From: Nephrocerus scutellatus | Taxonomy: Eukaryota > Arthropoda > Insecta > Diptera > Pipunculidae | DNA: 64,000 bases | Direction: 5' to 3' | Assembly: GCA_947095585.1 (NCBI GenBank) | Contig: OX352765.1 | Location: 57,004,920 to 57,068,919 of the forward strand | Shown: positions 26,119 to 62,902 of the stretch, in pieces | Numbering within the stretch: the stretch's first letter is position 1 | Layout: each line of letters begins with the position of its first letter | The notes under the pieces: generated by a model | What the model saw: only the letters and a program-made list of their open reading frames with translations | Database searches by the model: none | What the model was told of the DNA's origin: nothing | Translations under genes and position numbers: made by a program

Positions 26119-26136
26119 TAAGAATCTGATGGAGTT

Positions 26137-26745: not shown

Positions 26746-26789
26746 AGTGGCGGCTCTGTATCCCCTGTGTGCCGCAGTGTGAGCAGTTG

Positions 26790-32681: not shown

Positions 32682-32717
32682 GTTGAGCAGTCGGTTAGGG
32701 GGTGGTGGCCGTTTTTT

Positions 32718-34123
32718 CTACTCGAGGCTTCGGGTCTGCTGCTGTGGTGTGGTGATTTTTGGAGGGGGTGCCAATACGGGGCGTGATCTGGTGCGGCGAT
32801 GTGTTCCCGGTTTTGGATTGTTGCCGAGGAACTTGGTGACGTGTTGATCGTTCGCCATTTTGATTGGTACTGGTGTTGCTGGTTGGGTGATGTTGTCGAG
32901 TATACCTGCGGTTTGACTTTTATCTACGTGTGGTGTGTCGGATACTTGCTTTAAGTCTTTGACGTGAGCAGTTATTGTTTTTTTGTTTTCCCCTTCCAGG
33001 ATAAATATAACTGGTGACAACTTCTTGGATAACCGGTAAGGTCCAACGAATCGTGGTGCTAGCTTAGCGGCGAAATTTTGGGTAGCTGAGGAGAGTGGTC
33101 GGTGGCGATAATAGACCATTTCCCCTATTGCTGGTGTCCATGGGCGTCGTCGAAGGTCGTAGTAGCGTTCTTGTGTGCTAAACACTTTTGCTAGGTTATG
33201 CTTAACTAGGATTAGGATCTCATTCAACATGGTGATACGTTCCGGTGTGTCAGGTTCTTTATTTAGTGGTATATCTGGGGTGACCGTAACCGTAGCTCAC
33301 GGCCGAAATTAAGATAGGCGGCGGAGTAACCGGTTGTCTTGTTGTGACTGGTGTTAATGGCTAACATAAATTTGGATAGGTACTCGTCCCATCGACGGTG
33401 ATCTGTTTTGACATATTGCGAGATCATTGTCTTGATTACACAGTTCATCCGTTCGGTCGGGTTAGCTTGCGGTGTATAGGGCTGTGTAAATCTCTGTTCA
33501 ATCTGCAGCAGTGTTAATAGATTCTGGAACTGCTTACTTCGGTACTGCGTACCATTATCGGTAATCAATATTTTCGGGCGTAACGGCTGAGTATGTGTTC
33601 TTTTAAACCTTTAATGAGGGCGGGGGTGGTTGCATCACGGAGAGCCAAGAATTCTGTCCATTTAGAGAACTTATCGTAAAAGACTAATATCATCGTGTTC
33701 CCTTTTGCCGATCGTGGAAGAGGGCCTATGAAATCGGAGCATACGATTTCCCATGGATGGTTGGCGGTGGTTACATGCATCTCTCCAGCAGGTTTTCGGG
33801 TCGGAATCTTGTACTCAAGGCAGGTGGGGCACCTTCGGACGAATCGCGCGGTATCGCGATATAGTCGCGATTCTGGTGATAGTTTTGGCTATCCCCATAT
33901 GGCCTGCGGTCACATCTGCATGATTCTCGTGCATGACCTGTTGGCGATGTGGTTTGGGTACGCAAATTTTCCAAGCTGACGTGGTGGTTTCGGTGTAGCT
34001 GGTCGGAGTGAATATGTGTCGGTATACGGTTTTCTCTACGATCTGGTATTCTGGATTTTCCTCGGGTTTCGTGACAGATTGCATCTTGGAATCGTACCAT
34101 GGGCGGGTTTCGGTTATTGGCAA
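32718..34123 (-). pseudogene. Gypsy-C integrase, frameshifted (copy 2)
   Basis: As copy 1, with an additional 4-bp deletion near 33578 (gggcagccgtaac became gggcgtaac), which breaks the core just before ITDNGTQYRSKQF. That lesion arose after the duplication or was lost from copy 1. Confidence 0.87.
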
Positions 34124-34141
34124 TAAGAATCTGATGGAGTT

Positions 34142-34750
34142 TTAGGTTGGGTGTCGGGATAGTACATCGGCCACGGTGTTGGACGATCGTTTTCGGTAAC
34201 GGATTTCGTGTTCGGTGATGTCGGTTGGCCCTTTCAGTTTTTCGAACGTGGGTACTTCGGTTGCTAAAAATTTCTTGAATGGTTGTTCTTCGGACAAAAG
34301 ACTTTGAATAACAGGTTTGCCAGGTTTGGTTCGAGCTGCTATCATCTCTTTTCCACGGTTGATGGTAAATCCAAATCTTGATAGGAAGTCGATTCCTATT
34401 AGGAAACCGTCCATGAGTTCTGGTATATATACAAACTCATGAGTAACTGTACGACCCTCCCAGGGTAGTTTCGTCATGTATGCATAGCGGGCGGTAATGG
34501 TAGATTTGTCGGCTAAGGCGAAAGTCATGGCTATCGGTCGGACTGGTACACGGTTTGCTCTACAGATCTGCTGTATGGTTTTACTGATGCATGATCTTCC
34601 TGCCCCGGTGTCGATGACTGCATCGTATTGGCGATTATATAGAATTTGAAGGATAGTGTGTATGAGTCGTGGCTGAGGATAGTCGGAGTGGGGGCGTCTA
34701 ATGCTTCACAAGATTGGATGGCCCGCTGACGTTTCCCGACCTGCATTGGC
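34142..34750 (-). pseudogene. Gypsy-C protease joined to the RNase H tail (copy 2)
   Basis: Same deletion junction as copy 1 (DITEHEI then RYRKRSSNTVADVL). Retropepsin D-T-G-A-G-R-S is intact near 34615. Confidence 0.87.
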
Positions 34751-34794
34751 AGTGGCGGCTCTGTATCCCCTGTGTGCCGCAGTGTGAGCAGTTG

Positions 34795-35671
34795 GAGTGG
34801 TTGTTGTCAATGCTTTCTTAGGGGTCCAGGTTGGCTGCATGCCCAACAGTGGGTTTTCCGCTCATATGCGTTTGTCGGTGTTGCGCTACTGGTGTGAGAT
34901 TGGTGTGGATATATTGTATTTTTATTAGAGATCTGGTGGGTGATATTGCTGGTGTGTGACGGGTATGAATGTGTTACATCGTTGGCCACTGGTTGATATG
35001 AAGATGTGACATTTCTAGTGTGTGACGGGTATGATTGTGTTACATCGTTGGCCACATGTTGATATGAAAATGTGACATTTCTGGTGTGTGACTGATGTGG
35101 ATATGTTACATCGTTGGCCACAGGCTGATATGACGATGTCATGTCTTTGGTGTGTGACTGATGCGGATATATTACATTGTTGCCCACTAGGTCTGGTGGC
35201 AAAATTGGTCGAGCGAACTGGATAGGAAGGTGGTATGGAGTGGCTACGGGTTGAGACGCTGGCTGGCTATGTTGTACTGGTGACATATTTTGTCGAAACG
35301 GTGGTGCGGTATGACGGAACGGTGGGACGGTAGGGTGTAGTGGCAATGGTCGACTTTCTGTCTGAGTGGGTCGTGATGGATGTTGTTCTGCCACTAAGCA
35401 CTCGAAATCCTCAATTAATGTGGTTAGTTCGGACAAGGTGTTGAACTCTCTTCGCTTTATGTAGTGCCGGTAGTCGGGCCGCAAGTTGTCGTAAATCCGA
35501 TCGAGCTTTTCTTCGGTTGTGGTATGCTCGCATCAGGGCTTGAATTGATGTTAGAAATTCCTTGCCCTTTTCTCAATCTTCTGCGTACGACCACGAATGC
35601 GATCTAGTAGTTGGGTGTAGAACCGTGGTGGTAAGAAAAAGTGGCGTAGTTCCTCGCTAAATGATTTCCAG
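34795..35671 (-). pseudogene. Gypsy-C gag, C-terminal part (copy 2)
   Basis: Same as 26790-27662, including the 22-residue repeat region. It ends at TSD bases CCAG (35668-35671), immediately before the intact Gypsy-A 3' LTR. Confidence 0.83.
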
Positions 35672-42459: not shown

Positions 42460-43240
42460 GATTCAACGCATCGTTTGTATTACTTTAATCTTTTAAAAGA
42501 GTAATGCATCTTAGTAATATTAGTTTACTTTGATTGCTGTAAAGCTCAACATATATTTCCTGAATTTTCCGTGATCGGGTAAAAATTCCCTTAATGCTTC
42601 AGTAAAATATTCGCCTACATCTTTTGATTTAATAGTGAGTCTTCTTATACCCTTATAAAGATATTTTATATTTTTACCTTCATCTTCTGACTCTATAACT
42701 TCTATTTGATGCTTAAAAATATTTGTAGGTAATTCTAAAATTCCTATGTGATCATTTCTTTCTTCTATTCCACTATGATTTGTGGCTAACGATGAATCTT
42801 CATTTCCATTTACTTCGATAATCTGCTACGCGATTGTCTTTTCCTTTTAAATATTCGATAACAAAATCATATTCATTTAAACTTATTTTCCATCTTTGGA
42901 GTTTTGAGTTTGGTTCTTTAAGGTTACTTAACCAAACTAAAGGTCTATGGTCAGTTTGTATTTTAAATTTGCGACCGTAAAGATATGGTCTGTAATATTT
43001 TGTTGACCAAACAATACTTAATAATTCTTTTTCAATAGTGCTATATCCGCGTTCATGTTCATTGAGTGTGCGAGATGCATAGCATAATAGGTGATTTGAT
43101 TGTGAAAGGACGGATCCAATTGCATAATTTGATGTATCAGTTGTTAACACGAATTCCTTTGTGTAGTCAGGATATTTTAGATATGAGTTATTTTGGATAT
43201 GAGATAGATATGAGTAATTTAAGTTCTTCAAAAGCTGTTA
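42460..43240 (-). pseudogene. Element D RNase H and linker
   Basis: 42800-43231 is an open frame with the gypsy RNase H domain: [16 protein letters not shown] (catalytic Asp), [20 protein letters not shown] (catalytic Glu region), [20 protein letters not shown] (catalytic Asp), [16 protein letters not shown] at the end, where DALSR is more usual. The reading continues after a frame change to a linker (HIGILELPTNIFKHQIEV, RRLTIKSKDVGEYFTEAL) ending near 42510. RNase H removes the RNA strand after copying. Confidence 0.85.
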
Positions 43241-43811: not shown

Positions 43812-46800
43812 TGTAACGAGGTTTTTCCCAGCCGGGGTAAAACTCAGTGTGACCAGGGTTCCTTCTTCTACTAGGGTCGTTACAATAAAAAGAATTTGTT
43901 TGTTTAGGGAATGGAATTCAATTGTTTTTATTATTACTTCCTTTTCTTCGCTTAATCCGTAAACTTAAAACTATTATTGGCTTAAAACTATGTATAAGAT
44001 TAAATTGTGTTTGTTAGGCAAGGATTTCACTCTTGCACTTTCAAGCGTGAGGATAATTGTACTAGCGTGAAGGCAATGATTTCACTCTTGCACTTTCAAG
44101 CGTGAGGATAATTGTACTAGCGTGAAGGCAAGGATTTCACTCTTGCACTTTCAAGCGTGAGGATAATTGTACTAGCGTGAAGGCAAGGATTTCACTCTTG
44201 CACTTTCAAGCGTGAGGATAGTTGTACTAGCGTGAAGGCATGGATTTCACTCTTGCACTTTCAAGCGTGAGGATAATTGTACTAGCGTAAAGCGTGGATG
44301 TGAAGGCAAGGATTTCACTCTTGCACTTTCAAGCGTGAGGATCGTTGTACTAGCGTAAAGCTTGGGTGTGAAGGCAAGGATTTCACCTTTGCACTTTCAA
44401 GCGTGAGGATCGTTGTACTAGCATAAAGCGTGGACGTGAAGGCAAGGATTTCACTCTTGCACTTTCAAGCGTGAGGATAGTTGTAAAACGTGAAGGCAAG
44501 GATTTCACTCTTGCACTTTCAAGCGTGAGGATAGTTTTACTAGTGTGAAGGCATGGATTTCACTCTTGCACTTTCAAGCGTGATAATCGTAGTACTAGCG
44601 TAAAGCGTGGACGTGAAGGCAAGGATTTCGCTCTTGCGCTTTCGATCGTGAGGATAATTGTACTAGCGTGAAACGTGGCTGTGAAGGCAAGGATTTCGCT
44701 CTTGCGCTTTCGATCGTGAGGATAATGGTACTAGCGTAAAGCGTGGATGTAAAGGCAAGGATTTCGATCTTGTACTCACGATCGTGAGGATAATGGTACT
44801 AGCGTAAAGCGTGGACGTGAAGGCAAGGATTTCACTCTTGCACTTTCAAGCGTGAGGATAGTTGTACTAGCGTAAAGCGTGGATGTAAAGGCAAGGATTT
44901 CGCTCTTGCACTCTCGATCGTACACTTGTTGCCGGGAGAAGGGATCATTAGGAAAGAAGGCCGATTGTTGGGACTGCTGGCCTTGTATACTCTTCCGTCG
45001 AGTGAAGGAGTCCCGTTAATGCTACGATCGAAGAGTCCGTTAAATCGTACGATCGGTCGATGGTATATTGTTGTTGCTTCCTTTGTTTTGGCATTGTTGT
45101 TGTTGTTTGTTGTTGGCCGGTTAGCATTGCTGCACTTGATGGCTTGTTGTTGGCCGGTTAGCATTGCTGCGCTTGATGGCTTGTTGTTCCCAGCTTGGGT
45201 GTGAAGGCAAGGATTTCACTCTTGCACTTTCAAGCGTGAGGATCGTTGTACTAGCGTAAAGCGTGGACGTGAAGGCAAGGATTTCACTCTTGCACTTTCA
45301 AGCGTGAGGATAGTTGTACTAGCGTGAAGGCAAGGATTTCACTCTTGCACTTTCAAGCGTGAGGATAGTTGTACTAGCGTGAAGGCATGGATTTCACTCT
45401 TGCACTTTCAAGCGTGAGGATAATTGTACTAGCGTAAAGCGTGGATGTGAAGGCAAGGATTTCACTCTTGCACTTTCAAGCGTGAGGATCGTTGTACTAG
45501 CGTAAAGCGTGGACGTGAAGGCAAGGATTTCGCTCTTGCGCTTTCGATCGTGAGGATAATTGTACTAGCGTGAAGCGTGGCTGTGAAGGCAAGGATTTCA
45601 CTCTTGCGCTTTCGATCGTGAGGATAATGGTACTAGCGTAAAGCGTGGATGTAAAGGCAAGGATTTCGATCTTGCACTCACGATCGTGAGGATAATGGTA
45701 CTAGCGTAAAGCGTGGACGTGAAGGCAAGGATTTCACTCTTGCACTTTCAAGCGTGAGGATAGTTGTACTAGCGTAAAGCGTGGATGTAAAGGCAAGGAT
45801 TTCGCTCTTGCACTCTCGATCGTACACTTGTTGCCGGGAGGAGGGATCACTAGGAAAGAAGGCCGATTGTTGGGACTGCTGGCCTTTTATACTCTTCCGT
45901 CGAGTGAAGGAGTCCCGTTAATGCTACGATCGAAGAGTCCGTTAAATCGTACGATCGGTCGATGGTATATTGTTGTTGCTTCCTTTGTTTTGGCATTGTT
46001 GTTGTTGTTTGTTTTTGGCCGGTTAGCATTGCTGCGCTTGATGGCTTGTTGTTGGCCGGTTAGCATTGCTGCGTTGTTGTTGTCATCGATCGGATCTTCC
46101 GAGTCTGCATTGCCTGTTTGTTGTTATTGTACCTCTCTGCTTGTCTAGTAATGCTGCGAACTGTGGAATGTATGCGGCCATGTATGCATATTATTTGTTG
46201 TTGTTTTCCTTCCTAAGTCTGCCCCGTTTTGAAGTGCATGCTTATTGTTGTTGTTTTCTTGAATCGACATCGATCGGGTCTTCCGAGTCTGTGCTGTTTG
46301 CTTGTTGTTGTTGTATCTCTCTACTTGTCTGATAATGCTGCATACTGTGAACTGTACGCGGCCATGTATTGCATATTGTTTGTTGTTGTTTCTTGAATCG
46401 ACATCGATCGGATATTCTATGTCTGTGGTAACTCGTACTGCCTGTGTGTTGTTGTTGCTTCCGAGTGTATTGCGGGTGCGGTAACTCCTTAGGCATCGAT
46501 TTGGGTATTCCCAGTCTTTGTGGTCTCGTATTGTATGCATGTTGTTGTTGTTTTGCTCAGCCGCTTGATGATGGTGCGTACTAGCTATGTGTGGTGAGTT
46601 TACGAGAAAAGAGAGAAAAAAGGGAAACAATAGAAAACTGGAGTTTCCTAAACCATAAGACTAGAGTATTCTTTTGGTGAGTGTTTTACAATTCACTCAA
46701 GGAGAGTGGGCAGCATGTTGCAATCCACTTAAGGAGAGTGGGCAACATGTTAAACAAAATACTATGGTGTCTATTTGTAATGGGTATACAAGTTTCCCTT

Positions 46801-46867
46801 TTGTTCAAATAAAAATGTATACAAGAATAGTGTGGGAGAAATTGTGTGGGACAATTTTTCCCTCACA
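43812..46867 (-). repeat. Gypsy-B 3' LTR, about 3.06 kb, internally duplicated
   Basis: Plus-strand ends tgtaacgaggtttttccc and ...gacaatttttccctcaca. It holds a minisatellite of aaggatttcactcttgcact-type units (55-72 bp) from about 44015 to 44930, a promoter-like block, then a second array (45200-45830) and a second promoter-like block: a 0.9-kb internal duplication (the landmark acacttgttgccgggag occurs at 44932 and 45828). The right TATA is intact (GTATAAAAG, 45884-45892); the left copy is mutated (ttgtatac). The U3 part (45960-46560) has about ten ttgttgttg clusters and three copies of atcgatcgg.tcttccgag-like text. Confidence 0.88.
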
Positions 46868-46880
46868 CCTCCCCCTCACT
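46868..46880 (-). promoter_or_regulatory. Gypsy-B polypurine tract
   Basis: Minus strand agtgagggggagg directly before the LTR; primes plus-strand synthesis in such elements. Confidence 0.8.
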
Positions 46881-46983
46881 TCGGCGGATGCTGACTTTCC
46901 CTTTCCAAGTAACTGGTACTCCAAACCGAGTTTTCCCTGTATTCGCCGCATCGTTCCAGTTGCCACCCTTTCCTTTGCTTCCT

Positions 46984-48186
46984 TTATTTTGGCCTGGAGT
47001 TCTTGGGGCAAGATTTCAGCCGTGGTCCCACCTTCATGCACCGTGTCGCTGCCTGTGATTGGCAGGACGTCGTTATGCTGCCTGGACGCCTCTGGGTTTG
47101 GGGGGTCACGTTCATCCGATACGAGCTTGGTGGGGTTCTTCCTCTTTTTCTCTTGTTGTCGGTTTCGCTGCTGCTGCTGCTGCTGCTTTCGCTGCTGCTC
47201 CTGCTGTTGCTACTACTACAGCTGCTACTGCTGCTGCTACTGCTGCTGCTACTGCTGCTGCTACTTTTATCTTGTCTGCTACGGCTCCGGTAGCGATGGC
47301 GAGTGCGGCGCGGAGTTTTCTGCCTACTGCGATTGTTCCTCTCTCGGGTGTTTCGTCCTAGGTCGTCGTCGTCTAGTTTGAGGTCTGGGAGTTTTATCGT
47401 TCGTTCGGCATTCCTCTGGATAAAAGCTGCGAGCATCCTTCGTTTCTTGTGGGCGCTGTCCACCGACATCTTCTGTCCTGGCGATTCGGGTCCTGATAAT
47501 CTCCACGCGAGGACCTTTTCGGCGGCCTCCAGAAGGAATGCGCCGCAATTCACCCCGTTTTGTTGCCGGCCTGGATAGCAACTTTCGAACTCGGCCCAGG
47601 TCCACGGATGCCCCTTCGCTAGGTGCTGCTGTATGACATACCAGCGGATGATTTGGATGGTTTCCGTCCTCGGTGTTTTGACCCACGAGTCATACACGTC
47701 GATGGTGGCGCGGAGTGGTCTGCCCGGGTTGATAACCACCACGAGGTACCAATGGTTGCCATCACAGATGGGCACTAAGACCAGGTCCTTTTTGATGAGG
47801 TCCTTACGCCGGTCCCACCTACTCACCAGTGCGTGTCGCCTGATGACCGTCCTCTCAGGGTCCTCTTGCTGGTCTGGTCGGTACTGCTGCATGCGCGAAA
47901 AGAGGAACGTGCTACAGACCATGATCTTGTCTCGGTATTCTCCCTCCATCCTTCCTCCTAGCCACCTTAGTCCGACTTCTACCAGGACGTCGTTTAGATG
48001 GACTCCCTTCTTCAGCCGGCAGTAGTCGGCCATTCGTACGTCGACGCCGCCTGGCCCTGGGGAATAACTCCCGATCACTTGGCCCAGATCGATTTCTTCG
48101 GATGCGGGTGCAATACCTGTGCCCTTTATGATGATACGTTGTACGGCTTCGTTGTCTCCCTTCAGTATCCTCTGGTTGTTCATCAT
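46984..48186 (-). CDS. Ulp1-like (C48 family) cysteine protease encoded by Gypsy-B, 400 aa
   Basis: Uninterrupted minus-strand frame between integrase and the 3' LTR. Residues about 55-225 fit the Ulp1/SENP fold: KKGVHLNDVLVEVGLRWL (59-76; family consensus has WLND), CSTFLFSRM (91-99), DGNHWYLVVVIN with His145 and Trp146, VYDSW with Asp166, and PGRQQNGVNCGAF with Gln208 and Cys214. Family members remove SUMO or similar modifiers from proteins; the substrate here is unknown. Residues 250-310 are basic, then RSRSRQDK, about 40 mostly Ser residues and KRKRGR, a likely nuclear signal. The last 50 codons read better in another frame (LQAKIKEAKERVATG, 46900-47040), so a frameshift may have changed the C-terminus. 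Start at 48186 is the first ATG of the frame after integrase. An unrelated host gene captured by the element is the likely origin. Confidence 0.82.
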   Translation of the reverse strand: MMNNQRILKGDNEAVQRIIIKGTGIAPASEEIDLGQVIGSYSPGPGGVDVRMADYCRLKKGVHLNDVLVEVGLRWLGGRMEGEYRDKIMVCSTFLFSRMQQYRPDQQEDPERTVIRRHALVSRWDRRKDLIKKDLVLVPICDGNHWYLVVVINPGRPLRATIDVYDSWVKTPRTETIQIIRWYVIQQHLAKGHPWTWAEFESCYPGRQQNGVNCGAFLLEAAEKVLAWRLSGPESPGQKMSVDSAHKKRRMLAAFIQRNAERTIKLPDLKLDDDDLGRNTRERNNRSRQKTPRRTRHRYRSRSRQDKSSSSSSSSSSSSSSSCSSSNSRSSSESSSSSSSETDNKRKRGRTPPSSYRMNVTPQTQRRPGSITTSCQSQAATRCMKVGPRLKSCPKNSRPK

Positions 48187-48374
48187 GTTTGCTTTCTTCT
48201 GAATATTTTTGTTTACTATTCGGGTTTGATGTCTGAATGGACTCCGTAATCACTTTAGACTAATTTTTACTTGCTGAGTGCACTTGAAACGAAAACAAGT
48301 TGCGGGACCTGTGTTCCGTTGTTTTCTCCTCTGGCGCAGTTTACTTCGTTGTTATTCCAGTGTGTTTTGGACGG

Positions 48375-49812
48375 TTACATCATTTGGGTGTCGTGGTGTT
48401 GATTTCGATGTTTTCGAGTTGTTGTCACAGCTTTTACAGTAGTCCCAGATGAGGTCGTCATATGCCGTTTGCTACTATAATGTATTTCTATTGATTCCTG
48501 AGGGCATTGCACGTGAGGTGGCATTGTTGTTGCGATGCGGTTTGTCTTGTCTGGCTCGGGTGGGGGGTTTCCGTGAAAGTCTTTCAGTTCACTGACATGG
48601 ACTGTGCGCTCCTTACTTTGTCCATGTTTCCTCAGCCTTACGATGACTGGCGAGATGAAGTCCATCACGGAGTATGGTCCATCGTATCGCGGCGCTAGTT
48701 TACTGGCGAACCCTTCTACTGCTTTCGATAAGTGGTGCTGTTTGACCAGTACTAACTTCCCGATTTCTGGCTTCCAAGGGCGTCGCCTGAGATTGTAGTG
48801 GCGGGCTTGGTCCTTTGCGGCTCATTCCAGGTTCTGTCGCACGATCTCGAAGATTTCTCTCATTCGGGTCTCTCGGTCCTCTGGGTCTTTGCCTAGCGTA
48901 CCTGTCCCCGGAGTGGTCTCGTCATATAGTGTGTGTGGGAGGCGTGGTTCTCGGCCTTGTGTCAGAAAGGCTGGACTGTACCCTGTTGAGTCCTGAACGC
49001 TCGAGTTTATCGCCAGTATGACTTCGGGCAGCCTTTCGTCCCAAGTGCGTTGTTGTGACCCTGATAATTGTGCAATTATCGTTTTGATGGTGTTGGCTCT
49101 TTCCGTAGGGTTTTCCTGGGGGGTGTACGGTGCTGTAAACTGTTGGCGTATGCCCATGGTCTCCAAAAATCGATGAAACGCTCTGCTGCTGAATTGTGCC
49201 CCGTTGTCCGTTATCAGGATTTTGGGCACGCCGTATCGGGCCAGTATACGTTAGCGAAACGCCCGTTGAACTCCTTCCGTCGTTGCCCTCCTCATTGAGA
49301 TCAGTTCAACCCACTTCGAAAACCGATCAAAGAAGACTAGTAGCATGGTATTTCCGTGTTTCGATCTGGGGAGTGGCCCAATGAAGTCGCTGCACAACGT
49401 GGCCCATGGTTCGTCGGCCACCTGGGTTAGCATCTTCCCTGCTGCTTGCTGTTGACTGGGTTTGTAGACCTGGCAGCTTTCGCATCTCTTCGCGTGCTGT
49501 CGGAGGTCGCGGAACATACCCGGCCAATAGTAACGACCACATATTCTCGCCGTGGTCTTCCGGATTCCTATGTGCTGCTGCTGACGCGCTGTCGTTGTTC
49601 TCTTGTAATACTCGACTTCGCAGGGTACTCGGCACACACAGCTTCCACGGTGCGTTGTCCTCGTCTCCGGCTCGATGCCCTATGTGTCGATACAGTTGTT
49701 GACCTTCGATCACGTAGTCGGGGAATTTGGCGGGATCCTCTGCGACCTGGTGGATTTTCTTCTGCAGCCAGTGGCACTTCTGTTGCCCGGTGTGTTCTTC
49801 GGAGGTCGTCAT
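48375..49812 (-). pseudogene. Gypsy-B integrase, frameshifted
   Basis: 49327-49812: linker and zinc-binding part (YVIEGQQLYRHIGHRAGDED, WKLCVPSTLRSRVLQENND). 49251-49637: RYYWPGMFRDLRQHAKRCES and TLCSDFIGPLPRSKHGNTML with the first Asp. 48822-49229: ILITDNGAQFSSRAFHRFL (second Asp), PQENPTERAN (Glu). A stop precedes the C-terminal part, LAPRYDGPYSVMDFISPVIV, a GPY/F-type module, which ends at 48375. Lesions: frameshift near 49600, stop near 49250, stop near 48822. Complete D,D,E set, but not one reading frame. Confidence 0.88.
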
Positions 49813-49819: not shown

Positions 49820-51647
49820 TCTTGAGGTTGTCTTGATAGCGCGTCTGCGACGACGTTGAGTTTACCCCGCCTATATTGTATGTCATATGTGTATTGTTAT
49901 AGCTCCAGTGCCCACCGTGCGATCCGACCGGAGGGGCAGGATATGGAGTTGAGCCATTTGAGGGAGAGGTGGTCTGTTACTACCGTGAACCTATACCCTT
50001 CGATATACGCCCGCATTTTCCGTATTCCCCATATAATAGCCAGACATTCCTTCTCGGTCGGCGAGTAATTCCTCTCTGCAGGGTTTAGATGCCGGCTGGC
50101 GTAAGCTATGACCCGTTCACTGTCGTCGATCTCCTGGGTGAGGACTACCCCCAAGCCATAATCGCTGGCATCTGTCTGAAGTGTGAATTTCTTAGAGAAA
50201 TCGGGGCATGCCAGGATTGGGGCCTCGGTAAGTTTCAGTTTTTCGAATGCTTCCTGTTGCTCCTCTTCCCACTTCCAGTGCTTCCCTTTCTTGAGTAAGT
50301 TGGTCATCGGTCGTACGCTCGGCAAAATCTGGGACAAACCGTCGGTACCATAAAGCGATGCCCAGATACCGGCGCACTTCTCGTACATTCCTCAGTGGTT
50401 GGAGTTCTTTGATCGCCGCCACTTTGTCAGGGTCAGTGTGTATGCCTTTGTTACTGACCACGTGTCCCAGGTATCGTATTTCTGTTTTGCAGAATTCACT
50501 CTTTTCCGGGTTAATTTTTAAGTTAGCCATTAGCAATCGCTTGAACACCTTGCGCAGATTTTCCATGTGTTCGTCAAACGTCCTCCCGATGACAACTATG
50601 TCATCCAGGTATGCAAACGCATGGGGCTCCATCTCTGGTCCGATGACTCGATCGAGCGCTCGCTGGAAGGTTGCGGGGGTCGAGTGTAGTCCAAACGGCA
50701 TAACGCGCCATTGGAACAGTCCAGGCGATTTGCCAATATCCATTTCTCAGGTTCAGGCTACTGATGAATTTTGCGCCGCGAAGCTTTTCTAGGATGTGTT
50801 GGATTCGTGGTAAGGGGTATGCGTCGGGCACCGATCGTGCGTTCAGTTCTCGATAGTCAATACAGAGTCTCCATTTGCCCGTCTTCTTTCGCACGAGAAC
50901 TATGGGTGCACTGTGGGGGCTATGCGAAGGTTCGATGCATCCCTTTTTCAACAACTCGTCGATTTCTGTATTTATTATCTCCTGCATGGCTGGATTACGG
51001 GGGAAGTAGCGCTGTTTTATTGGGCGTTCATCGTGCATGACGATTCTGTGTTCCGTGATGTTGGAGACGGCGGGTAGTCGGTCGAATTTCTGGAATTCTT
51101 GTTGCAGAAAAATTGAAAGTTCTTCCTGGTCTGCCCCTAGGATTTCCTGCGTGATGGTGCATTGTCGGATGTGTTCCGCGGGCGTTGTTCTGTGTTGTAA
51201 TTTTATGGTCTGGCCGCCGCAGCTTAGACGGGCCCTCACCCGTGACAAAAAGTCCAAACCTAATATTACTTCGTCCGTTGCATCTGGGAGAATCAAGAAT
51301 GGAAACTGTATCTCCCTATTACCTATCTTGACATCTAGTTGTAGGGCCTCTCGGATCAGCTTGGGTGTTCCTTCGGCCATCCGCACGGTCACGTCCATGG
51401 GTAGTCCCTTCGTTGTTCCCCTTTTGCCTTCCGCAAAACGTTCACTCACAAAACTCCTAGTAGCCCCTGTGTCGATCGTAGCTCTTACCGATGTTCCTCC
51501 TAGGGTGATGGCGGCGAATATCCGGTTGGAATCGTACGCGAGGAAGTTTACTGAGTCCGGGGTGTCGGTCTCGGGGTCTCCGCCATGCCACGGTTTCGGC
51601 GGTCCCCTTGCTCGTTTCCCGATCGTTCGACGCGTTTCCGGCAGCAC
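49820..51647 (-). pseudogene. Gypsy-B protease, reverse transcriptase and RNase H, broken
   Basis: 50601-51647: retropepsin ATIDTGATRSFVSERFAEG and EVILGLDFLSRVRARL, then RT boxes IVLVRKKTGKWRLCIDYREL and FISSLNLRNGYWQI. About 20 codons are then missing with a frameshift. 50192-50743: GLFQWRVMPFGLHSTPATFQ and the catalytic FAYLDDIVVIG, with YLGHVVSNKGIHTDPDKVAA. Another frameshift near 50290. 49897-50388: RNase H with FTLQTDASDYGLGVVLTQE and TVVTDHLSLKWL; a stop at about 49897 precedes RRGKLNVVADALSRQP. The active-site Asp residues are present. Confidence 0.9.
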
Positions 51648-52655
51648 TCAACGGTCCGGACGTTTCGCAGGCCGCAGTTCCAACAGAAGATGGTTTGGGG
51701 GTTACGACAGTCCCGCCTCATGTGTCCGTCCTGGCCACATCGCAGGCAAGCTGTCCTTACATTTATTCGTGTCTCCAAATTTTGTGCTACCATGAAACTC
51801 CTTTCGGGTTGCCTGGGTCGAGGCGAGGGTTTGATAGGCTCCGCTGCTCCAGCGATGCCTTCAAAGTCTTCTGCCAGGCCGATGAGTTCGTGGAGGTCTC
51901 TAAAATCCTTCCTCCGGATATAGTATTGGTACTCTTGGCAACAGTTCCGGAAGATCCTTTCGACCTGTTGTGTAGTGGTGTAGTTCGCGTGCCTCATGAG
52001 ATTTTGCATGACGATGACGAAATCCTTGAAGCTCTCCTTTGGCTTTTGCTGGCGTTGACGGATTTCGTCTTCCAGATGTTCCCAGTACCTTGAAGCGGGA
52101 AGAACTGTAGGAAGTCTGTCGTGAAGGCGTTCCAGGTTTCCCATTTTCGGTTGTTGTTGCGGAACCATAATAACGCACGGTCACGGAGTAGTTCCGGCAC
52201 GGCAGGAGGTCCCTGTTTAAATAGTAGGCATCCGCCAGTTCTTCCAGCCTTTCGATGAACAGAAGAGGCTCCTTACCCCCATCGTATCTCACTGACCACT
52301 TCCTCACATGGTCCATTATCTGAGCGTACGATGTAACTGTCGCGTCCGTCCTGCTTCGCGTAGGAACCAGTTCCGGTGGTGTCGGAGATGTTGCCCTGAA
52401 GGTTGTCTTTAGTTCGTCTCGTGCCGTAGCTTCAGACGGGTTTAGAGTTATCAGGGGCACTAGTGACGGGCCGCGTCTATGCTTCTCTTCGAGCTCACTT
52501 AGGCGTACCTCGTCCTCCGACGTAACGTCTCGTCCCGAAACATAGCTGGAAAACCTTTTCCTTAACTCTTCCACTGCGCCATTGCTGTCGATTCGGAACT
52601 CGCTCATGAAGCCCTTCAGCTCCTCTTTTGACAGTGTATAAATCCAACTGGTCTT
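51548..52655 (-). pseudogene. Gypsy-B gag, frameshifted and without start codon
   Basis: Minus strand from 52655: KTSWIYTLSKEELKGFMSEF (SAP-like, as in Gypsy-A, but the expected ATG is ATA), EELRKRFSSYVSGRDVTSED, then VRKWSVRYDGGKEPLLFIER and LEELADAYYLNRDLL. A frameshift near 52200 moves to ELLRDRALLWFRNNNRKWET, another near 52100 to the C-terminal capsid (VERIFRNCCQEYQYYIRRKD). A perfect zinc knuckle CLRCGQDGHMRRDC follows, then CWNCGLRNVRTVEC with no His. Confidence 0.87.
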
Positions 52656-52724
52656 AACTATCGTGGTTATCTAATTGTGGTTTTCCTTTATTGGTATAAT
52701 TTCTTTCCTCTATCAAATTCCAGG

Positions 52725-52742
52725 TTCCCTGCTCGGGCGCCA
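52725..52742 (-). promoter_or_regulatory. Gypsy-B primer binding site
   Basis: Minus strand TGGCGCCCGAGCAGGGAA, two bases inside the 5' LTR. The first 17 bases equal those of Gypsy-A. Confidence 0.85.
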
Positions 52743-52744: not shown

Positions 52745-54030
52745 TGTAACGAGGTTTTTCCCAGCCGGGGTAAAACTCAGTGTGACCAGGGTTCCTTCTA
52801 CTACTAGGGTCGTTACAATAAAAAGAATTTGTTTGTTTAGGGAATGGAATTCAAATGTTTTTATTATTACTTCCTTTTCTTCGCTTAATCCGTAAACTTA
52901 AAACTATTATTGGCTTAAAACTATGTATAAGATTAAATTGTGTTTTTTAGGCAAGGATTTCACTCTTGCACTCTCGATCGTGAGGATAGTTGTACTAGCG
53001 TAAAGCGTGGATGTGAAGGCAAGGATTTCACTCTTGCACTCTCGATCGTGAGGATAGTTGTACTAGCGTAAAGAGTGGATGTGAAGGCAGGGATTTCACT
53101 CTTGCACTTTCAAGCGTGAGGATAGTTGTACTAGCGTGAAGGCAAGGATTTCACTCTTGCACTTTCAAGCGTGAGGATAATTGTACTAGCGTAAAGCGTG
53201 GATGTGAAGGCAAGGATTTCACTCTTGCACTTTCAAGCGTGAGGATCGTTGTACTAGCGTAAAGCGTGGACGTGAAGGCAAGGATTTCGCTCTTGCGCTT
53301 TCGATCGTGAGGATAATTGTACTAGCGTGAAGCGTGGCTGTGAAGGCAAGGATTTCACTCTTGCGCTTTCGATCGTGAGGATAATGGTACTAGCGTAAAG
53401 CGTGGATGTAAAGGCAAGGATTTCGATCTTGCACTCACAATCGTGAGGATAATGGTACTAGCGTAAAGCGTGGACGTGAAGGCAAGGATTTCACTCTTGC
53501 ACTTTCAAGCGTGAGGATAGTTGTACTAGCGTAAAGCGTGGATGTAAAGGTAAGGATTTCGCTCTTGCACCCTCGATCGTACACTTGTTGCCGGGAGGAG
53601 GGATCACTAGGAAAGAAGGCCGATTGTTGGTACTGCTGGCCTTTTATACTCTTCCGTCGAGTGAAGGAGTCCCGTTAATGCTACGATCGAAGAGTCCGTT
53701 AAATAGTACGATCGGTCGATGGTGTATTGTTGTTGCTTCTTTTGTTTTGGCATTGTTGTTGTTGTTTGTTGTTGGCCGGTTAGCATTGCTGCGCTTGAAG
53801 GCTTGTTGTTCCCAGGTCCCGTTGATGCAACGATAGGGAAATCCGTTAAATCATACGATCGACCAGTGGTGTAGCGTGTTTGTTGCCTCCGTCGACCCTA
53901 TGTTGTTTGTTGGTTTTCCTGGTCACCATGCATTGCGTGCTGTTTGTTGTTGTTCTATTTGTGATTCGGTGCCGTCTTATACTACATGCTCGTTGTTGTT
54001 GTCATCGATCGGATCTTCCGAGTCTGAGTC
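52745..54030 (-). repeat. Gypsy-B 5' LTR, truncated in U3
   Basis: Begins tgtaacgaggtttttccc. Poly-A signal AATAAA (minus, 52860-52865), minisatellite about 52940-53580, TATA box GTATAAAAG (minus, 53641-53649). Matches the left LTR until tcatcgatcggatcttccga near 54025, then stops; about 0.8 kb of U3 is missing. It has one array and one promoter, so the duplicated layout of the 3' LTR is secondary. Confidence 0.88.
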
Positions 54031-54195: not shown

Positions 54196-54935
54196 GTTTA
54201 CAGCATTAGTGTGCATTGAGTTGGGCTTTCTATAGAGAAGGTTTTGATTGTATGCATGTTTTAGTTTTGATTTTATGTGTTACTTCCTTTACGTTAGTTA
54301 AAATGTCTCCTTCTCTATAGAATAATTGTTTATTATTTTTTAATATTTAATTCAGGGCTATCTTTTCTTCTCTGTTCATATAAGGTTTAGTTAATTTGTC
54401 AGTTAAATCTTGTAAAGCTAAATCAATACCACATAAATTAATTTGTGTATTTGATAATTCTTGAATGTACCTATCTAAAGGGTATTCCTTGGGTTTTGTG
54501 AGCAATGGGATAATAGTATTTTTAATCTTCAATGTATGAGTATAATATGATATTTCGGCTTCTAATGGTATAAGGATATTATTTCCTAAAATTCCGCCAA
54601 ATGAACTGTTGGTAATTGGAGTAATTAAAAATTCCATGGTTGATTCTTTTTTATTAAATTCGATTGGTAATGGTAAAATTATTTTAGTATTTACTTTTTT
54701 TTCATTATATATTGCTTTAATTGTAATTGGTTTGTCTAATTTACTTTCAAATGTCTTGGAAATATATTTTCTTTTAAAATAGATGTAGCTGCTCCTGTGT
54801 CTACTAAAAATCTAAGTTTTTTATTAAGAATATGAACATGCAGAATATGCAGGGTATGGTCTGTTGAGGCAGGTGTTTGAAAATTTGCTGTATTTTCGGT
54901 AAGTTGATCTACTTACATTGGTTCTGGATAATTTT
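54196..54935 (-). pseudogene. Element D protease, broken
   Basis: Minus strand near 54800: KKLRFLVDTGAATSILKENI, a retropepsin active site with D-T-G. After a stop and frame change, 54347-54637 is open with NSSFGGILGNNILIPLEAEI, the conserved C-terminal motif of gypsy/17.6-type proteases, then a linker (YREGDILTNVKEVTHKIK) that would lead into RT. RT of this element is now at 43241-43811, beyond Gypsy-B. Confidence 0.82.
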
Positions 54936-55128
54936 TTTTATTTTGTGTAGCAAATGGGTTACGATTATTATAAGAAAAATTTCCACTTCCTATAATTTTG
55001 TTCATTTTGGTTCTATAGTTTTGATTATTGTTTCTATAAAAGTTCTGACCTTTGTTATTGAAATTCCTATTGTTATTTGAATTTCTTGATTCGTTTTTAT
55101 AAAATCTATTATTTCATTGAATTGTAAA
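54936..55128 (-). pseudogene. Element D gag C-terminus, Asn/Arg-rich
   Basis: Minus strand rich in Asn and Arg (ESRNSNNNRNFNNKGQNFYR, YNNRNPFATQNKKNYPEP) without a Cys knuckle, as in errantivirus gag. Separated from the rest of gag by the two small elements. Confidence 0.7.
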
Positions 55129-56973: not shown

Positions 56974-58599
56974 TTATTTTATATTTAACATTTCTCTAAA
57001 TTTTATGAATTTAACATTACCCAATGCTTTAGTTAATATGTCCGCGACATTATTTTCGGACTCTATTTTAATAACTTCAATTTTATCTTGTATTAACATT
57101 TTCATGTATAAAATGGTAGTGTATTTCAATGTGTTTCGAGTTTTTTGTAAAATTTCCATATTAAGATATTGCCACTGCGCCTGAGTTGTCTTCATATATT
57201 TTAACTGGTTTACAAACTTTAGTAAAGACATCATTAATTAAGCATATTAAAAAGTTAATTTCTGTTACTGCTTCTGACACTGCAATATATTCTGCAAATG
57301 TGGACGATTTACTTATACAGTTCTGTTTTTTTGATTTCAAAAAGATAACATTTCCGAACACTCTAATTAGAAATCCAGTGGTGGATTTCCTATCAATTAT
57401 ATCTCCTGCCCAATCAGCATCAAAAAAGCAATCCATTACGTCAGTATTATCATTTTTATAATATTTTAAATTTATCTTTTTTGTCAAAAATAAATATTTC
57501 AGCACTCGCAGTGCATATCCAAAATGTGTTTCATTATAGCAATTTTGAAAACGACTTAGATAATTTACACAAAATGATATATCTGGTCTAGTACCAGAGC
57601 TGATATATAAAAGTGCACCTATTAAATTTCTATACTTTATATCCTCGTTCAGTTCAGATTTTTCCAATTTCAAGTTTATTTCCATAGGTGTTTTGAACAA
57701 TTTTGCATTTTCAATATTGTAACGTTTTGCTAATGACTCAACATAATGTTCCTGGCTTAAAGTTAAAATGTTTTCTCTTGTTCATAGCTATATTCAATAT
57801 CTATACCAATGTAATTTTTAACTTTGCCTAAATCTTTCATTTTAAATTTAACAGATAATTTAAATTTAATGTCATCAATAATATATTTTTTTCTACAGCA
57901 AATCAAAATGTCATCTAGAAATAATAGAATATAAACAATCAAGTCAGTCTCCCTTTTAAAATATAAACAATAATCATATTTGCATCTTTGAAAATTTAAA
58001 GTTGTCAGAAATCCGTTAAAACATTCGTACCAGGTACGTGGATTTTCTTTAAGGCCATATAATGACTTTTCTAACTTATAAACCTTTTCAGTACATTTTT
58101 CGTAGCCCATTGGCTGTTGTACATAAACTTCAGATAGAACTTTGCCATTTAAGAAGGCTGTCTCCACATCCATCTGATGGATTTCCAAAGAATTTTGGCA
58201 ACAATAAGACAGTAAAAGCTTTAATGTTGGCATTTTAGCTACCGGGGAATAAGTGTCATCCACACAATCAGTTTGTTGGAATCCCCTAACCACTAACCTG
58301 GCTTTATATTCATCTGCACTCTTTCTTTTGTAGACCCATTTCACATCAATAACCTTTTTGTCCTTCTGTGGCTTGTTAACGGGTGTCCATGTTTTATTTT
58401 TCACTAAACTGTCCATCTCACGATCCATGGCTGTTTTCCACTTATTTGAATCCTAACAGTTTATCGCCTCCTGATAATTTACGGGAGTAATAGCATCACA
58501 GTAGTTTACACTTATGCAATAATAGCCGAATTCTTCGTCGAATCGGAGTGGTGCCTTAACTTGTCTTCTTAATCTCTTTTCTCTCATAGTTTCATCCTC
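56974..58599 (-). pseudogene. Copia reverse transcriptase and RNase H, lightly broken
   Basis: 57763-58428: WTPVNKPQKDKKVIDVKWVY, YKARLVVRGFQQTDCVDDTY, MDVETAFLNGKVLSEVYVQQ and the catalytic YILLFLDDILICC (Phe-Leu-Asp-Asp). One frameshift near 57765 leads to 57161-57755, with FKTPMEINLKLEKSE, SSGTRPDISFCVNYLSRFQ and RNase H motifs DADWAGD, RKSTTGFLI and FAEYIAVSEA. A frameshift near 57165 leads to the end (NNVADILTKALGNVKFIKF, stop 56974). In-frame stops also lie near 58455 and 58605. Copies RNA to DNA in intact relatives. Confidence 0.9.
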
Positions 58600-59427
58600 T
58601 TATACCTCAGAATCACTATTTCCGTTATATGTCTCGTTCTCTTCTTGTTGTTTGGTAGTCCTAAGATTTGTTGTAAATACATTTTCTTTTTCTTCCTCTT
58701 TTGTTGTGCCCAAACCCTTTACTGGCTCTTTTTCTTCTTCATCTTTCTCGTCTTTAAATCCACATAATGTTACATCTTCTTCTATTACATCACGATGTCT
58801 AGCCACTATTACTCTGTTGTTTATCAATACTCTATATCCAGTGTCAGTATATCCAAGTAGGATGCCGGTTTCTGCCTTCTTGTCCCATTTAGATTTTCTT
58901 CTCGCTTCTGGAATTCGTACAAACACTTTACTACCATACATTTTCAGATTCTTAACTGAGGGCTTCCTGTCGAAAATTATTTCATATGGAGTTTTTCTTT
59001 CAATGGTATTGGTTCTATTTTTAAGATATGCAGCTGCTTTAATTATTTCTGGCCAGTATTTTCTTTCAACCTTTGCTTCTGATAAAAGACATCTCCCCAT
59101 ATCCATTAATGATCGGTTGTACCTCTCAGTGGTTCCATTTAGTTCATGCACATATGCCGGACAAGGTTTTATTATAATTCCTTTTTCTTTTGCAAATTCA
59201 AAAACTCTCGTATTCATATTATTTTTACTCATATTTGCAACCAACGTTTCTCCATTTATGTAACTTGTCATCTTATATAGTCTTTCATCTTTAATTGCAA
59301 CAGCTATAATTTCTCCATATGGGTTATATATTCTTGTCAATCTTCCCCTTGACACCACTGAATTTCTGTCTGTGATTTTTGAATAGCTTAGTAAATTTGC
59401 CTTCATCTCCTTTACGTAAAATACATT
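58600..59427 (-). pseudogene. Copia integrase lacking the zinc-binding domain and two catalytic Asp
   Basis: Reads NVFYVKEMKANLLSYSKITD and LYKMTSYINGETLVANMSKN, the copia pre-integrase region. It then jumps to FAKEKGIIIKPCPAYVHELN and GTTERYNRSLMDMGR, which carries the Glu. About 150 residues with the HHCC domain and both Asp are deleted in frame. It continues to the C-terminal part (YGSKVFVRIPEARRKSKWDK, GYRVLINNRVIVARHRDVIE) and an acidic linker. The frame stays open, so the deletion is clean, but the enzyme would be inactive. Confidence 0.87.
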
Positions 59428-59926
59428 TCGTCGTCTGAGAATTGTTTTGTTGTATACGCCAAAATGCACTTTTTGGAGTGGATATGCAGTACTATGTTTT
59501 CAAAGGAGCTCTTTCCATTTCTGCACCCAGATGTAACCTATAATTTACCGTTACTGAGAGAATTAGTATCATTTTGTCGTAAGCGACTGATTTTGGCATG
59601 TACGACAAAATTTCTATATAATTTTGCATTTTTTTTTGTTTAGTTTTGTTTTGTCGTATGTCTATAGGCATAATAGATACGATACAAAATTCCAAAAGAA
59701 ATTTTAGAATTGTTTTGTCGTAAGTGTATAAACCTCAGAAGAAGAATGGAACTGATCCTATGAACATACAACACAAACATAAAAAAGTAAGTGCGGCTTG
59801 GTTTGTTGTATGTGCATACAGATTTTAACGGAGGAAGGAGAACGTATAAGTAGACGAGGATCACCGTTAAAAATTTAGTCGTCTGTTAAATCTCGTTCAG
59901 TGAGGTCGTATGCGTTGTATACAACA

Positions 59927-62130
59927 ATGGGATCTCCGGACAGAAATATTTCGCAAGATATACTTTCGTTAGTAGTATAGTAGAAAAATAGTTTATTTTA
60001 TTCATTAAGTGTAGTATGAGATATGTAATTTGAGTAAACAATAGGCGTGTTTTTTATGTCGGTGTACTCAAAGAGATCCCCTGAAAATTATCGGATTTAT
60101 CAATTTCTCCGACATAAAAAAAACGCCCAATATTACATATTATAATGTCATATTGATTTAACTTATTTTGTTATTAGACTTATTAATGAAATAGTTCCTA
60201 GCGATGTTGAATTTAAGGAAAACATTGACGGACCTCATTCCATTTTATCTGAAAAGGATTTTGGTATTTACGAACCTCAATTAAAGAATAAACGGAAAAT
60301 TTATATTGTTTTAGTTAGATAGCGACGACACTTTAAAGGACTCTGATTTTATTCCATAATCAGAATCAAATTTACGCGAAGCCTTATTAGAACTTCCTTT
60401 GTCTGAAAACTTAAGAAAAATACCTTCCGAATACTACACATCATCTGGTTAAACAAATTTGAACTGTTCATTGTAGTAATACTTTTGTTTTTATAAAGAG
60501 AGTGACGCATCCCCGAAAGGTGCGAGAAAAATATCGAGGAAACCAGAACTCTGGAAAAGTAACATAAGGAAGAGACTCAGAGAATCAGGACTGGAGTATT
60601 CTATATAGGAAAATCCATGGCAGCCAGAAAAATGAAGGAACCATTTAGGCCCACTTGTTTCTTTTTCTTGCACAAAGAATTTCGTCACCGAAGACAGACT
60701 TAGAATTCATAACTCATTTTGGAATTTATCCGATGCTGAGAAACCCTATTTTTATGGCAAGTTTGTTCAGAAAACCCCAATCCAAAGAAGAAGAAGAATT
60801 GAATCAACGGTTAAGAAACCATTCTTTTAAGTTCTTCCTTCAATCTGATGAGGAAAGAATATACCAAGTTTGTAAAAAAAAAAATTTTAAACACCTTATC
60901 TATTAGTGAAAGAAGAATTTACTATTATTTCAATAATTTGCATAAACAAGGCTGCCCTCAGCCATTTAAAAAGGGAAAAAATATTAAGAAAGTAACACCT
61001 CCTGATAAAACAAAGGCAGTCCGTGACAATATAAAAAGCTTTCCCACCATAGACTCCCACTATTGTAAAGCCCGCACAACAAGGAAATATTTAGAAGACC
61101 ATTTGAGCGTTCTTAAAATGTACCAGCTTTGTAAATACAAAAATGATATAGTATATGACAGAACGAGCAAGGAAAGAAGTGCGCGTCCAAACCGGTTTTT
61201 TTTTTGCTAAATCGAGAGAGAAGCAGAAATGTGAGAATGTGTGTTCGCTGTGACTGCAGTAAATAACAAAGAAATGAATTTTTCACGCGTCCAAACCGGT
61301 TTTTCTGCTAAATCGAGAGAGAAGCAGAAATCACAAACGACAAACAAAAGAGAATTCTTGCTCACGCGCAATGTGTTCGCTGAGATTGTAGTAAATAAAA
61401 AAAGAAGTTTATATCATAACATAACTAGTGTTGTTATGGGCTACTTTCGAGGCTAGTTTATAGCGTACGAAACAGTCACTTTCGTCTATGGGCGTGTGAA
61501 AAAGCTTTAATGAAAGCGGAAAGGGATATTGATCGTCAAAACATTGACACAAAACATGGCGTAATATGTTTTGACCTTCAGAGTGACTTTTCTTTGCCAA
61601 AAGGTAATGCATCTTCATTTTTTTATAAAAGAAAATTAAACGTCTACAATATGACGGCAACACTTTGCTTGCCGCAAAAGCCAAAGGTAACATACTGCGC
61701 AATTTGGAATGAGTCTTTTAGCGGCCGATCTGGTGAAGATATGGCAAGCTAAGTTTCAAAAATTTTGAGTCAAATCTTATCTGATAACCCTCTAATTGAA
61801 GCCTTGACACTTTGGAGTGACTCCTGTGTCCCGCAAAAAAAAACAAGGTAATGTCAAAAGCGATGCTATTTCTTCTCGCAAGAGCTCATAGATTGAAAGT
61901 AATAGAGCAAAAATTTTCAGAGCCTGGCCATTCCTTGATTCAAGAGGTAGATTGTGTGCATAGCTCCATCGACAGGTATCTAAAAAACTTAAAAGTTTAT
62001 TCAGCCGGTTGTCTCTTTTTAGACATATGAAAAACGTGAGTTTTAAAAATGTCAAGTTGAAGCTTATTAAAAGGATTGTTTGTTTTCATGCCTAAAGAAG
62101 ATCAATCCTATTACAAAGCTTTATTTAATC
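59927..62130 (+). pseudogene. Transposase-like gene of the inserted DNA transposon, broken
   Basis: Plus-strand pieces in order: a possible first exon MGSPDRNISQDILSLV (59927), LINEIVPSDVEFKEN and SENLRKIPSEYYTSSG (60180-60450), RKPELWKSNIRKRLRESGLE (60530-60590), RIYQVCKKK and TLSISERRIYYYFNNLHKQG (60850-60950), FPTIDSHYCKARTTRKYLED (61040-61100), VICFDLQSDFSLPKGNAS (61560), FYKRKLNVYN, LTLWSDSCVPQ (61800), IEQKFSEPGHSLIQEVDCVH (61905). The last motifs look like a D...D...E catalytic set. I recognise the layout from uncharacterised insect transposon proteins, possibly the DUF7869-type group, but the name is uncertain. Many frameshifts and a duplicated 45-bp block (61183 and 61285) make it inactive. 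Confidence 0.65.
60043..60127. other. Hairpin-forming inverted repeat in the transposon
   Basis: aggcgtgttttttatgtcgg (60043-60062) pairs with ccgacataaaaaaaacgcc (60109-60127); the complementarity extends outward imperfectly. It lies in what may be an intron of the transposase gene. Possibly a small inserted MITE. Confidence 0.6.
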
Positions 62131-62735: not shown

Positions 62736-62902
62736 TTGTCAATTTTACCTCTATTTTTAGTTCATAAACTGGAAAAGAAGCTTCTAATATTGTACCGTCA
62801 CCAATTTTTACTTTCACATGTTTTTGTAATGTCACGCTTGTTTCAAAATACTCATCTGTATTAATGATATGGTCTGTACAACCACTATCAAGTAACCATT
62901 CT
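62736..62902 (-). pseudogene. Copia protease, 5' part
   Basis: Minus strand: SIEWLLDSGCTDHIINTDEY, the copia-type protease active site D-S-G, then VTLQKHVKVKIGDGTILEAS. It starts in the -1 frame relative to the end of gag and is cut by the DNA transposon. Confidence 0.8.

Follow-up and report, generated by a model that had tools for sequence, protein, structure and literature searches.

A predicted SENP-like C48 protease gene in Ty3/gypsy elements of the fly Nephrocerus scutellatus

A decayed retrotransposon in a 64,000-nucleotide stretch of the Nephrocerus scutellatus genome (contig OX352765.1, positions 57,004,920 to 57,068,919; hereafter the window) carries, between its integrase and its 3' long terminal repeat (LTR), a third open reading frame (ORF3) with the appearance of a C48 (Ulp1/SENP) protease gene, a family that acts on the small ubiquitin-like modifier (SUMO). 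Why should a gypsy element possess such a gene, and do animal retrotransposons encode active counter-measures against silencing by Piwi-interacting RNAs (piRNAs) and SUMO? The reading that we favour, and to which we give about an even chance, is that ORF3 is a captured SENP6/7-like protease, an accessory gene with its own promoter, whose product would act as a nuclear deSUMOylase blunting host silencing.

ORF3 encodes a C48 protease

The preliminary description of the window had made the C48/Ulp1 identity of the gene hinge on a profile match. Pfam Peptidase_C48 matches residues 81-225 of the ORF3 protein (E=8.8e-18), the top solved structure is SENP7 (8.9e-12), and the protein has, besides the profile match, the His-Asp-Gln-Cys order that characterises C48 proteases. 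The 400-codon uninterrupted frame runs as had been described, from the ATG at 48186 to 46984 on the same strand as the integrase domains upstream of it, and H145-W146, D166, Q208 and C214 are placed correctly. The roles of His145, Asp166, Gln208 and Cys214 are those presumed by analogy with SENP1. The features of the gene are:

46984..48186, minus strand: ORF3, 400 aa C48 protease gene of the decayed window copy (ATG at 48186, stop ending at 46984, 400 codons)
47482..48069, minus strand: C48/SENP catalytic domain, residues ~40-235 (Pfam match 81-225)
47752..47754, minus strand: His145, presumably catalytic, from the alignment
47689..47691, minus strand: Asp166, presumably catalytic, from the alignment
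47563..47565, minus strand: Gln208, presumably the oxyanion-hole glutamine, from the alignment
47545..47547, minus strand: Cys214, presumably catalytic, from the alignment
47173..47331 (approximate limits), minus strand: Arg/Ser-rich then Ser-rich tract of low complexity
46805..47209, minus strand: frame holding part of the usual family ORF3 tail, out of frame with the window ORF

ORF3 recurs beside gypsy pol across the genome

The genome (613 Mb, 9 contigs) was searched with the window ORF3 protein, which gave at least 111 match rows, some of them pieces of one copy (a lower bound, 104 of 2,477 first-look candidates having been scored), and with the Pfam family, which gave at least 150 matches, all above the cut-off (150 of 487 candidates scored). 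The loci examined were a non-random choice from the best-scoring rows: 47 belong to elements (L001-L028, L042-L060), and one, L061, is a host gene. The RNaseH-integrase region of a gypsy pol lies upstream of the C48 domain on the same strand in 46 of the 47 loci, the exception being L048. The His-Trp pair is conserved in all 47, the Asp in 46 (L046 has Asn), and the Gln/Cys motif likewise in 46, the best match in L056 being cut by the locus end. The preliminary description had also looked to other copies for an ORF in this position, and many copies of several families carry one. A one-off nested insertion was rejected on the strength of the 46 loci with pol upstream on the same strand, and a chance ORF on that of the profile match and the recurrence of the gene.

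By sequence the copies form groups A (that of the window), B, C, D, E, F and G, the last being a rearranged tandem form. The protease domains of A, B and C are mutually 58-83% alike; between the groups A/B/C, D, E, F and G identity falls to 24-44% for the protease and 43-77% for the integrase. The C48 domain diverges faster than the integrase (58-60% versus 87-88% identity in the A-C comparison), and within F the values for F1/F2 against F3 are 52% and 80-81%, respectively. In 15 of 16 printed copies, drawn from A-F, the end of ORF3 falls within or next to the purine tract and the start of the LTR, as judged by eye; the exception is the window copy. Errantiviruses keep env in the position equivalent to ORF3; here that position is occupied by C48 and not by env. 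In subfamily B, seven of the nine compared copies differ by 0.29-1.01% over ~2.8 kb, so the subfamily has been mobile in recent times; the remaining two diverge by 2.5-7.6%. As judged from these copies, the predicted gene has become a permanent accessory of a Ty3/gypsy lineage, located between integrase and LTR in several families.

ORF3 of intact copies comprises ~440-550 aa. An N-terminal stretch is followed by the protease, then by a linker rich in Ser or Asn and finally by a C-terminal module of ~50 residues, the pattern of which is recognisable across A-F. The C48 match was found in all seven members of the window-family alignment and in all three scanned copies of D, E and F; low-complexity tracts in that alignment gave weak matches to SR-25 (3/7 members) and AF-4 (2/7). 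In families E and F the N-terminal stretch contains a motif resembling a SUMO-interacting motif (SIM), which reads SIVLSSDEEED in E and AIPLSSDDEES in F.

Two further forms of the gene were observed. In family D (L042-L046) the linker between protease and tail holds a 15-residue protein minisatellite, GQGINPSGNDLSNNH, whose number of copies varies. At C2:56345592-56464724 C48 matches are clustered, some of them within very long open frames (1,267-1,482 aa), and in L056 a single frame adjoining gypsy pol holds two C48 domains; the cluster and L056 represent an element gene that has been expanded in tandem or, possibly, domesticated.

Protease and integrase evolve under constraint

The ratio of nonsynonymous to synonymous substitution rates (dN/dS) was calculated for the protease domain in 11 comparisons; the eight made within A/B/C, D and E gave 0.10-0.20. 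Values were 0.10-0.11 for A-B, 0.20 for D1-D2 and 0.15-0.18 for the E pairs; those for A-C and B-C (0.16-0.20) and F1-F3 (0.20) come from pairs near saturation, with a proportion of synonymous differences of 0.64-0.69. Two comparisons are not counted as support, namely F1-F2 (0.54, interval 0.15-2.25), which holds too few changes, and E1-F1, which is saturated and gives no value. For the integrase the same pairs gave 0.03-0.16 (F1-F2, 0.88; E1-F1 saturated). With slightly different domain limits the C48 ratio was 0.08-0.20 between subfamilies and 0.28 (0.12-0.64) for the window copy versus L006. The ORF3 tail gave 0.08-0.33, two of five pairs being saturated and two more not computable. These ratios show purifying selection on the predicted protease as well as on the integrase, less tight on the former.

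Trees of the C48 domain and of the integrase alike give the groups (A,B,C,G), D and (E,F), the exact place of G in the integrase tree being unsupported. This agreement is as expected if ORF3 was inherited together with pol.

The nearest known relatives are SENP6 and SENP7

Comparison with solved structures covered the window family and copies of D and E. The window-family profile matched SENP7 (7.4e-21) and SENP5 (2.8e-11), the D copy SENP7 (1.9e-40) and Ulp2 (1.2e-19), and the E copy again matched SENP7 best (2.3e-23). Among solved chains ORF3 is thus closer to SENP6/7 than to SENP1/2/3/5. The opposite holds for C3:36739840, the best-scoring C48 match in the genome. It has no neighbouring pol, is SENP1-like (2.5e-70) and is taken for a host gene; it was rejected as the source of ORF3, the latter being nearest to SENP7. 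In one tree the element proteins fall on the SENP6/7 side, but the deep nodes are weak, with ultrafast bootstrap (UFBoot) values of 44-75. SENP7 carries a long insertion between His and Asp; this spacing is short in A-F, and because ORF3 is without the large catalytic-domain insertions of the SENP6/7 class we have not filed it there. ORF3 appears, then, to be a captured C48 protease with SENP6/7 (Ulp2 class) as its nearest known relatives.

Single-sequence and profile searches of a set of 5.8 billion proteins with the window family, of a kind that detects just relatives of similar length sharing exact words, gave no match at E<=0.001 and 0.01. Arthropod C48 proteins were reached with family D only, in a search that returned eight proteins: one from the spider Oedothorax, four from Timema, one from yeast and two fish SENPs. 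The four Timema proteins are taken for SENP6/7; they carry the long His-Asp insertion, and all four contain VIVVSSDDEE, which is close to the SIVLSSDEEE of family E and does not occur in the spider protein. In the latter (P0001, Oedothorax gibbosus) the full catalytic domain is preceded by several repeats of its N-terminal part. Viral contigs, scanned with the alignment of the window family, gave 35 pattern matches and no relative.

A putative internal promoter precedes ORF3

ORF3 seems to have a core promoter of its own, used by RNA polymerase II and located between pol and ORF3. We scanned for the arthropod core-promoter consensus strings, namely an initiator (Inr, TCAKTY, at most one mismatch) together with either a downstream promoter element (DPE, RGWYVT) at +28 or a TATA box (TATAWAWR) 28-35 nt upstream. 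In the window the features concerned are:

48290..48312, minus strand: conserved non-coding block ACAGGTCCCGCAACTTGTTTTCG, -51..-29 relative to the proposed start site
48258..48263, minus strand: proposed initiator TTAGTC, one mismatch, +1 at 48261
48229..48234, minus strand: proposed DPE AGACAT, +28..+33

The pattern occurs in 28 of 35 copies (A 7/7, B 10/10, C 0/7, D 5/5, E 4/4, F 2/2), counts in which copies of one family are not independent and from which L005, L018, L019 and L025 stand outside. In 27 of the 28, the first ATG after the predicted start site is that of ORF3. Dinucleotide shuffles of 200 nt produced the pattern in 0.6-3.3% of cases (nine sequences). Five of six family representatives have Inr+DPE or TATA+Inr just before ORF3; in these six loci (29,258 nt, same strand) five matches lie within 260 nt upstream of ORF3, and none was found elsewhere on that strand. 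Within the window element the match at 48261 is the sole one. Alignments of A, B and C have as their main conserved islands the block at -51..-29, the Inr and the DPE. Of eight further loci, L050, L055, L057 and L060 show the pattern, all belonging to families already seen. The internal promoter of foamy viruses drives their 3' accessory genes; ORF3 is a possible case of an LTR retrotransposon running a second promoter for an accessory gene.

Proposed function and points against it

DeSUMOylation, which the preliminary description had preferred, is the most likely chemistry of ORF3 because its nearest solved relative is SENP7; the other half of that proposal, an Ulp1-like gene in a gypsy element, is well supported. 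SENP6/7-type enzymes deconjugate SUMO chains and are not needed for SUMO maturation. Since insects use SUMO to silence jumping genes, ORF3 may be a weapon against SUMO-dependent silencing. The protein, which has Arg/Ser or basic tracts, would enter the nucleus and there strip host silencing factors, for instance those of the Piwi-Panoramix-Su(var)2-10 branch, of SUMO or SUMO chains, whereupon the LTR promoter of the element would escape transcriptional silencing; with a separate promoter, production of the protease would not depend on an active LTR promoter. Silencing requires SUMOylation of Panoramix (PMC13195609), and the R1 and R2 elements are derepressed upon SUMO depletion (PMC7676866).

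Tentatively, and with less than even confidence, we propose a wider scenario in which an old, diverse Ty3/gypsy lineage took up an arthropod SENP6/7-like SUMO-chain protease once, set it behind a private promoter in the env slot and employs it as an anti-silencing effector against SUMO-dependent, piRNA-guided silencing. It would then be an animal counterpart, independently reached, of the plant KIU/VANC genes. For the question whether animal elements possess such counter-measures, ORF3 offers a concrete, recurrent and selected candidate whose enzyme class is known and whose catalytic-dead control would be a single-cysteine mutant.

Several observations weigh against these proposals. Loss of Ulp1 raises retroelement RNA, both that of Ty1 in yeast ulp1 mutants (PMC8585004) and that of R1/R2 upon Ulp1 knockdown in Drosophila (PMC7676866), so the sign of an ORF3 effect on silencing is not obvious; these losses concern Ulp1-class enzymes, which also mature SUMO. 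The SIM-like motif is confined to families E and F, and only 3 of 57 columns of the C-terminal module are invariant among six sequences. The split between element and cellular proteases is weak (UFBoot 44) and the root of the tree moves, the host SENP1, sole outgroup of one tree, having joined E/F; a single capture is therefore unproven. The 14 control genomes of the Pfam family search contained no match, so that such elements have so far been shown in no other genome. As to the promoter, its pattern is not rare (17 plus-strand and 22 minus-strand matches in the 64 kb window), the criterion was framed after the sequences had been looked at, all seven copies of subfamily C lack the pattern (two Inr mismatches and one DPE mismatch, by eye), and so do four of the eight further loci (L043, L048, L049, L056).

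Alternative explanations

The main rival, which we rate as somewhat unlikely, makes ORF3 a deSUMOylase of the element's own Gag or integrase, permitting escape from SUMO-targeted degradation or action in the nucleus. Its chemistry would be identical to that of the favoured reading, the C48 domain is tied to the integrase by position and congruent grouping, and Ginger1 DNA transposons fuse Ulp1 to a gypsy-like integrase (PMC2836005). Such a role would have no need of the expression apart from Gag-Pol that the putative separate promoter provides, and the faster divergence of C48 is more like that of a protein facing a changing host than of one serving a conserved partner.

It is also unlikely that ORF3 is translated from an LTR-started spliced RNA, as the env of errantiviruses is, and that the resemblance to a promoter is fortuitous. 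In A/B/C the conserved block preceding ORF3 is rich in pyrimidines ahead of an AG (TTGTTTTCGTTTCAAG or TTGTTTTCGTGCTGAG) and might be a splice acceptor, with a possible donor, GAG/GTACGC, seen by eye early in gag near 52508. An accidental pattern fits poorly with families that share a correctly spaced core promoter, whether of the one type or the other, with the ORF3 ATG as first ATG in nearly every such copy, with the want of another such site on the same strand of the six loci, and with conserved islands that coincide with the upstream block, Inr and DPE.

A protease for particle maturation, like adenain or that of Polintons, would cut Gag or Pol and not SUMO; the Ulp1-like proteases of Polintons and viruses do have a role in the virion. 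Polintons and related viruses have such proteases in common (PMC10175614). We consider this explanation very improbable, and the least likely of the purposes that had been suggested for the gene, because pol has kept its aspartic protease both in the window copy (DTGA) and in a family E copy, L054 (IDTGATRSF); moreover, the closest relatives found are SENP-type proteases. That ORF3 is a mere passenger, picked up by one element as a fragment of a host gene and now drifting, is scarcely credible: the window copy has indeed decayed, but the gene is present in A-F with dN/dS mostly 0.1-0.2 and with its catalytic residues and end point conserved, and neutrality was rejected on this selection and distribution.

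Relation to other mobile elements

Apart from the place of ORF3 nearest to SENP6/7, established above for the window-family profile and the D and E copies, families E and F share an acidic SIM-like motif with the four Timema proteins taken for SENP6/7. ORF3 differs from SENP6/7 in being intron-free and part of a retrotransposon, in having no long His-Asp insertion and in adding a low-complexity linker and a C-terminal module.

Ulp1-like genes are known in other mobile elements. Besides Mutator DNA transposons they occur in Ginger1, in which a gypsy-type integrase is linked to Ulp1 (PMC2836005); unlike the present elements, with LTRs, reverse transcriptase and a separate ORF, Ginger1 has terminal inverted repeats, no reverse transcriptase and Ulp1 fused to the transposase. 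NeSL and Utopia are again retroelements carrying an Ulp1-like protease (PMC4640811), but of the non-LTR type, the protease being the N-terminal domain of the reverse transcriptase protein. CryptonF and CryptonS carry a C48 peptidase gene (PMC3212892) and are tyrosine-recombinase elements of oomycetes. In the Arabidopsis VANDAL/KIU elements (Mutator-like) an Ulp1 domain stands in a mobile-element gene tied to escape from silencing (PMC13317346); these are plant DNA transposons, the silencing is by DNA methylation and not by piRNAs, Ulp1 is joined to VANC, and the Ulp1 domain of the VANDAL anti-silencing genes has no known role of its own. Among insect Ty3/gypsy elements, errantiviruses and MDG1-group Metaviridae with sORF2 possess an accessory gene next to gag-pol (PMC11952523); its product is Env or a fusogen for transmission and no isopeptidase. 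Foamy viruses have a second, internal promoter within the provirus (PMC7828637), but are retroviruses whose accessory genes are unrelated to SUMO proteases. A term search of a review of accessory domains in retrotransposons (PMC6338049) found neither "ulp" nor "SUMO", and among the matches listed in open-licence PMC titles and abstract starts (Repbase not included) we recognised no C48/Ulp1 gene in a Gypsy or other LTR element. The placement in a Gypsy LTR element is, as far as we have seen, apparently new. That yet another kind of mobile element has captured a SUMO-type protease suggests that conflict over SUMO is common.

The window element and its surroundings

The order protease, reverse transcriptase, RNase H, integrase on the minus strand, from ~51.6 to 48.4 kb, is that of Ty3/gypsy (Metaviridae), and the element has TG..CA LTRs, a primer-binding site and a polypurine tract (ends judged by eye; 5' LTR truncated). 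Its remaining features are:

52745..54025, minus strand: 5' LTR, outer end truncated
52724..52742, minus strand: primer-binding site TGGCGCCCGAGCAGGGAAC, by eye
51548..52607, minus strand: gag frames with CCHC knuckle, divided between frames
51240..51509, minus strand: aspartic protease (DTGA)
50459..50894, minus strand: reverse transcriptase pieces in two frames
49897..50391, minus strand: RNase H
48375..49679, minus strand: integrase, with H2C2, an rve core interrupted by a stop and a Tf2-type SH3
46868..46880, minus strand: polypurine tract AGTGAGGGGGAGG, by eye; the last ORF3 codons of relatives lie in or at it
43812..46867, minus strand: 3' LTR, ~3 kb, beginning at 46867 directly after the purine tract

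Tandem repeats of 68 and 55 bp compose a large part of both LTRs, which we judge unusual for a gypsy LTR.

The window copy is dead: its gag and pol are broken up between frames, and its 5' LTR is truncated near 54025. ORF3, which had been described as an open protease gene, is indeed an open frame, but its tail is frameshifted and the neighbourhood of its active site altered. Six residues (HMDMPQ or HMEMPQ) found just before QQNGVDCG in other copies of the subfamily are lacking, and after about residue 349 most of those copies continue in another frame; L002 and L003 also end in the alternative frame of the window.

Pieces of other AT-rich LTR retroelements, with an RNase H match and by eye a DTGA-type protease, flank the element on both sides as nested insertions (42520-43237 and 54260-55100, both minus strand). 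Positions 57763-63827 hold pieces of a Copia-type LTR element (RVT_2, SH3_retrovirus and copia-type gag), and 8702-10471 (plus strand) a fragment of a non-LTR retrotransposon with endonuclease and the start of reverse transcriptase. No TTAGG telomere array was found at five contig ends. At 24172-27479 and 32181-35484, ORFs of equal length (166, 170 and 225 aa) repeat ~8.0 kb apart, which suggests a direct duplication of 8 kb.
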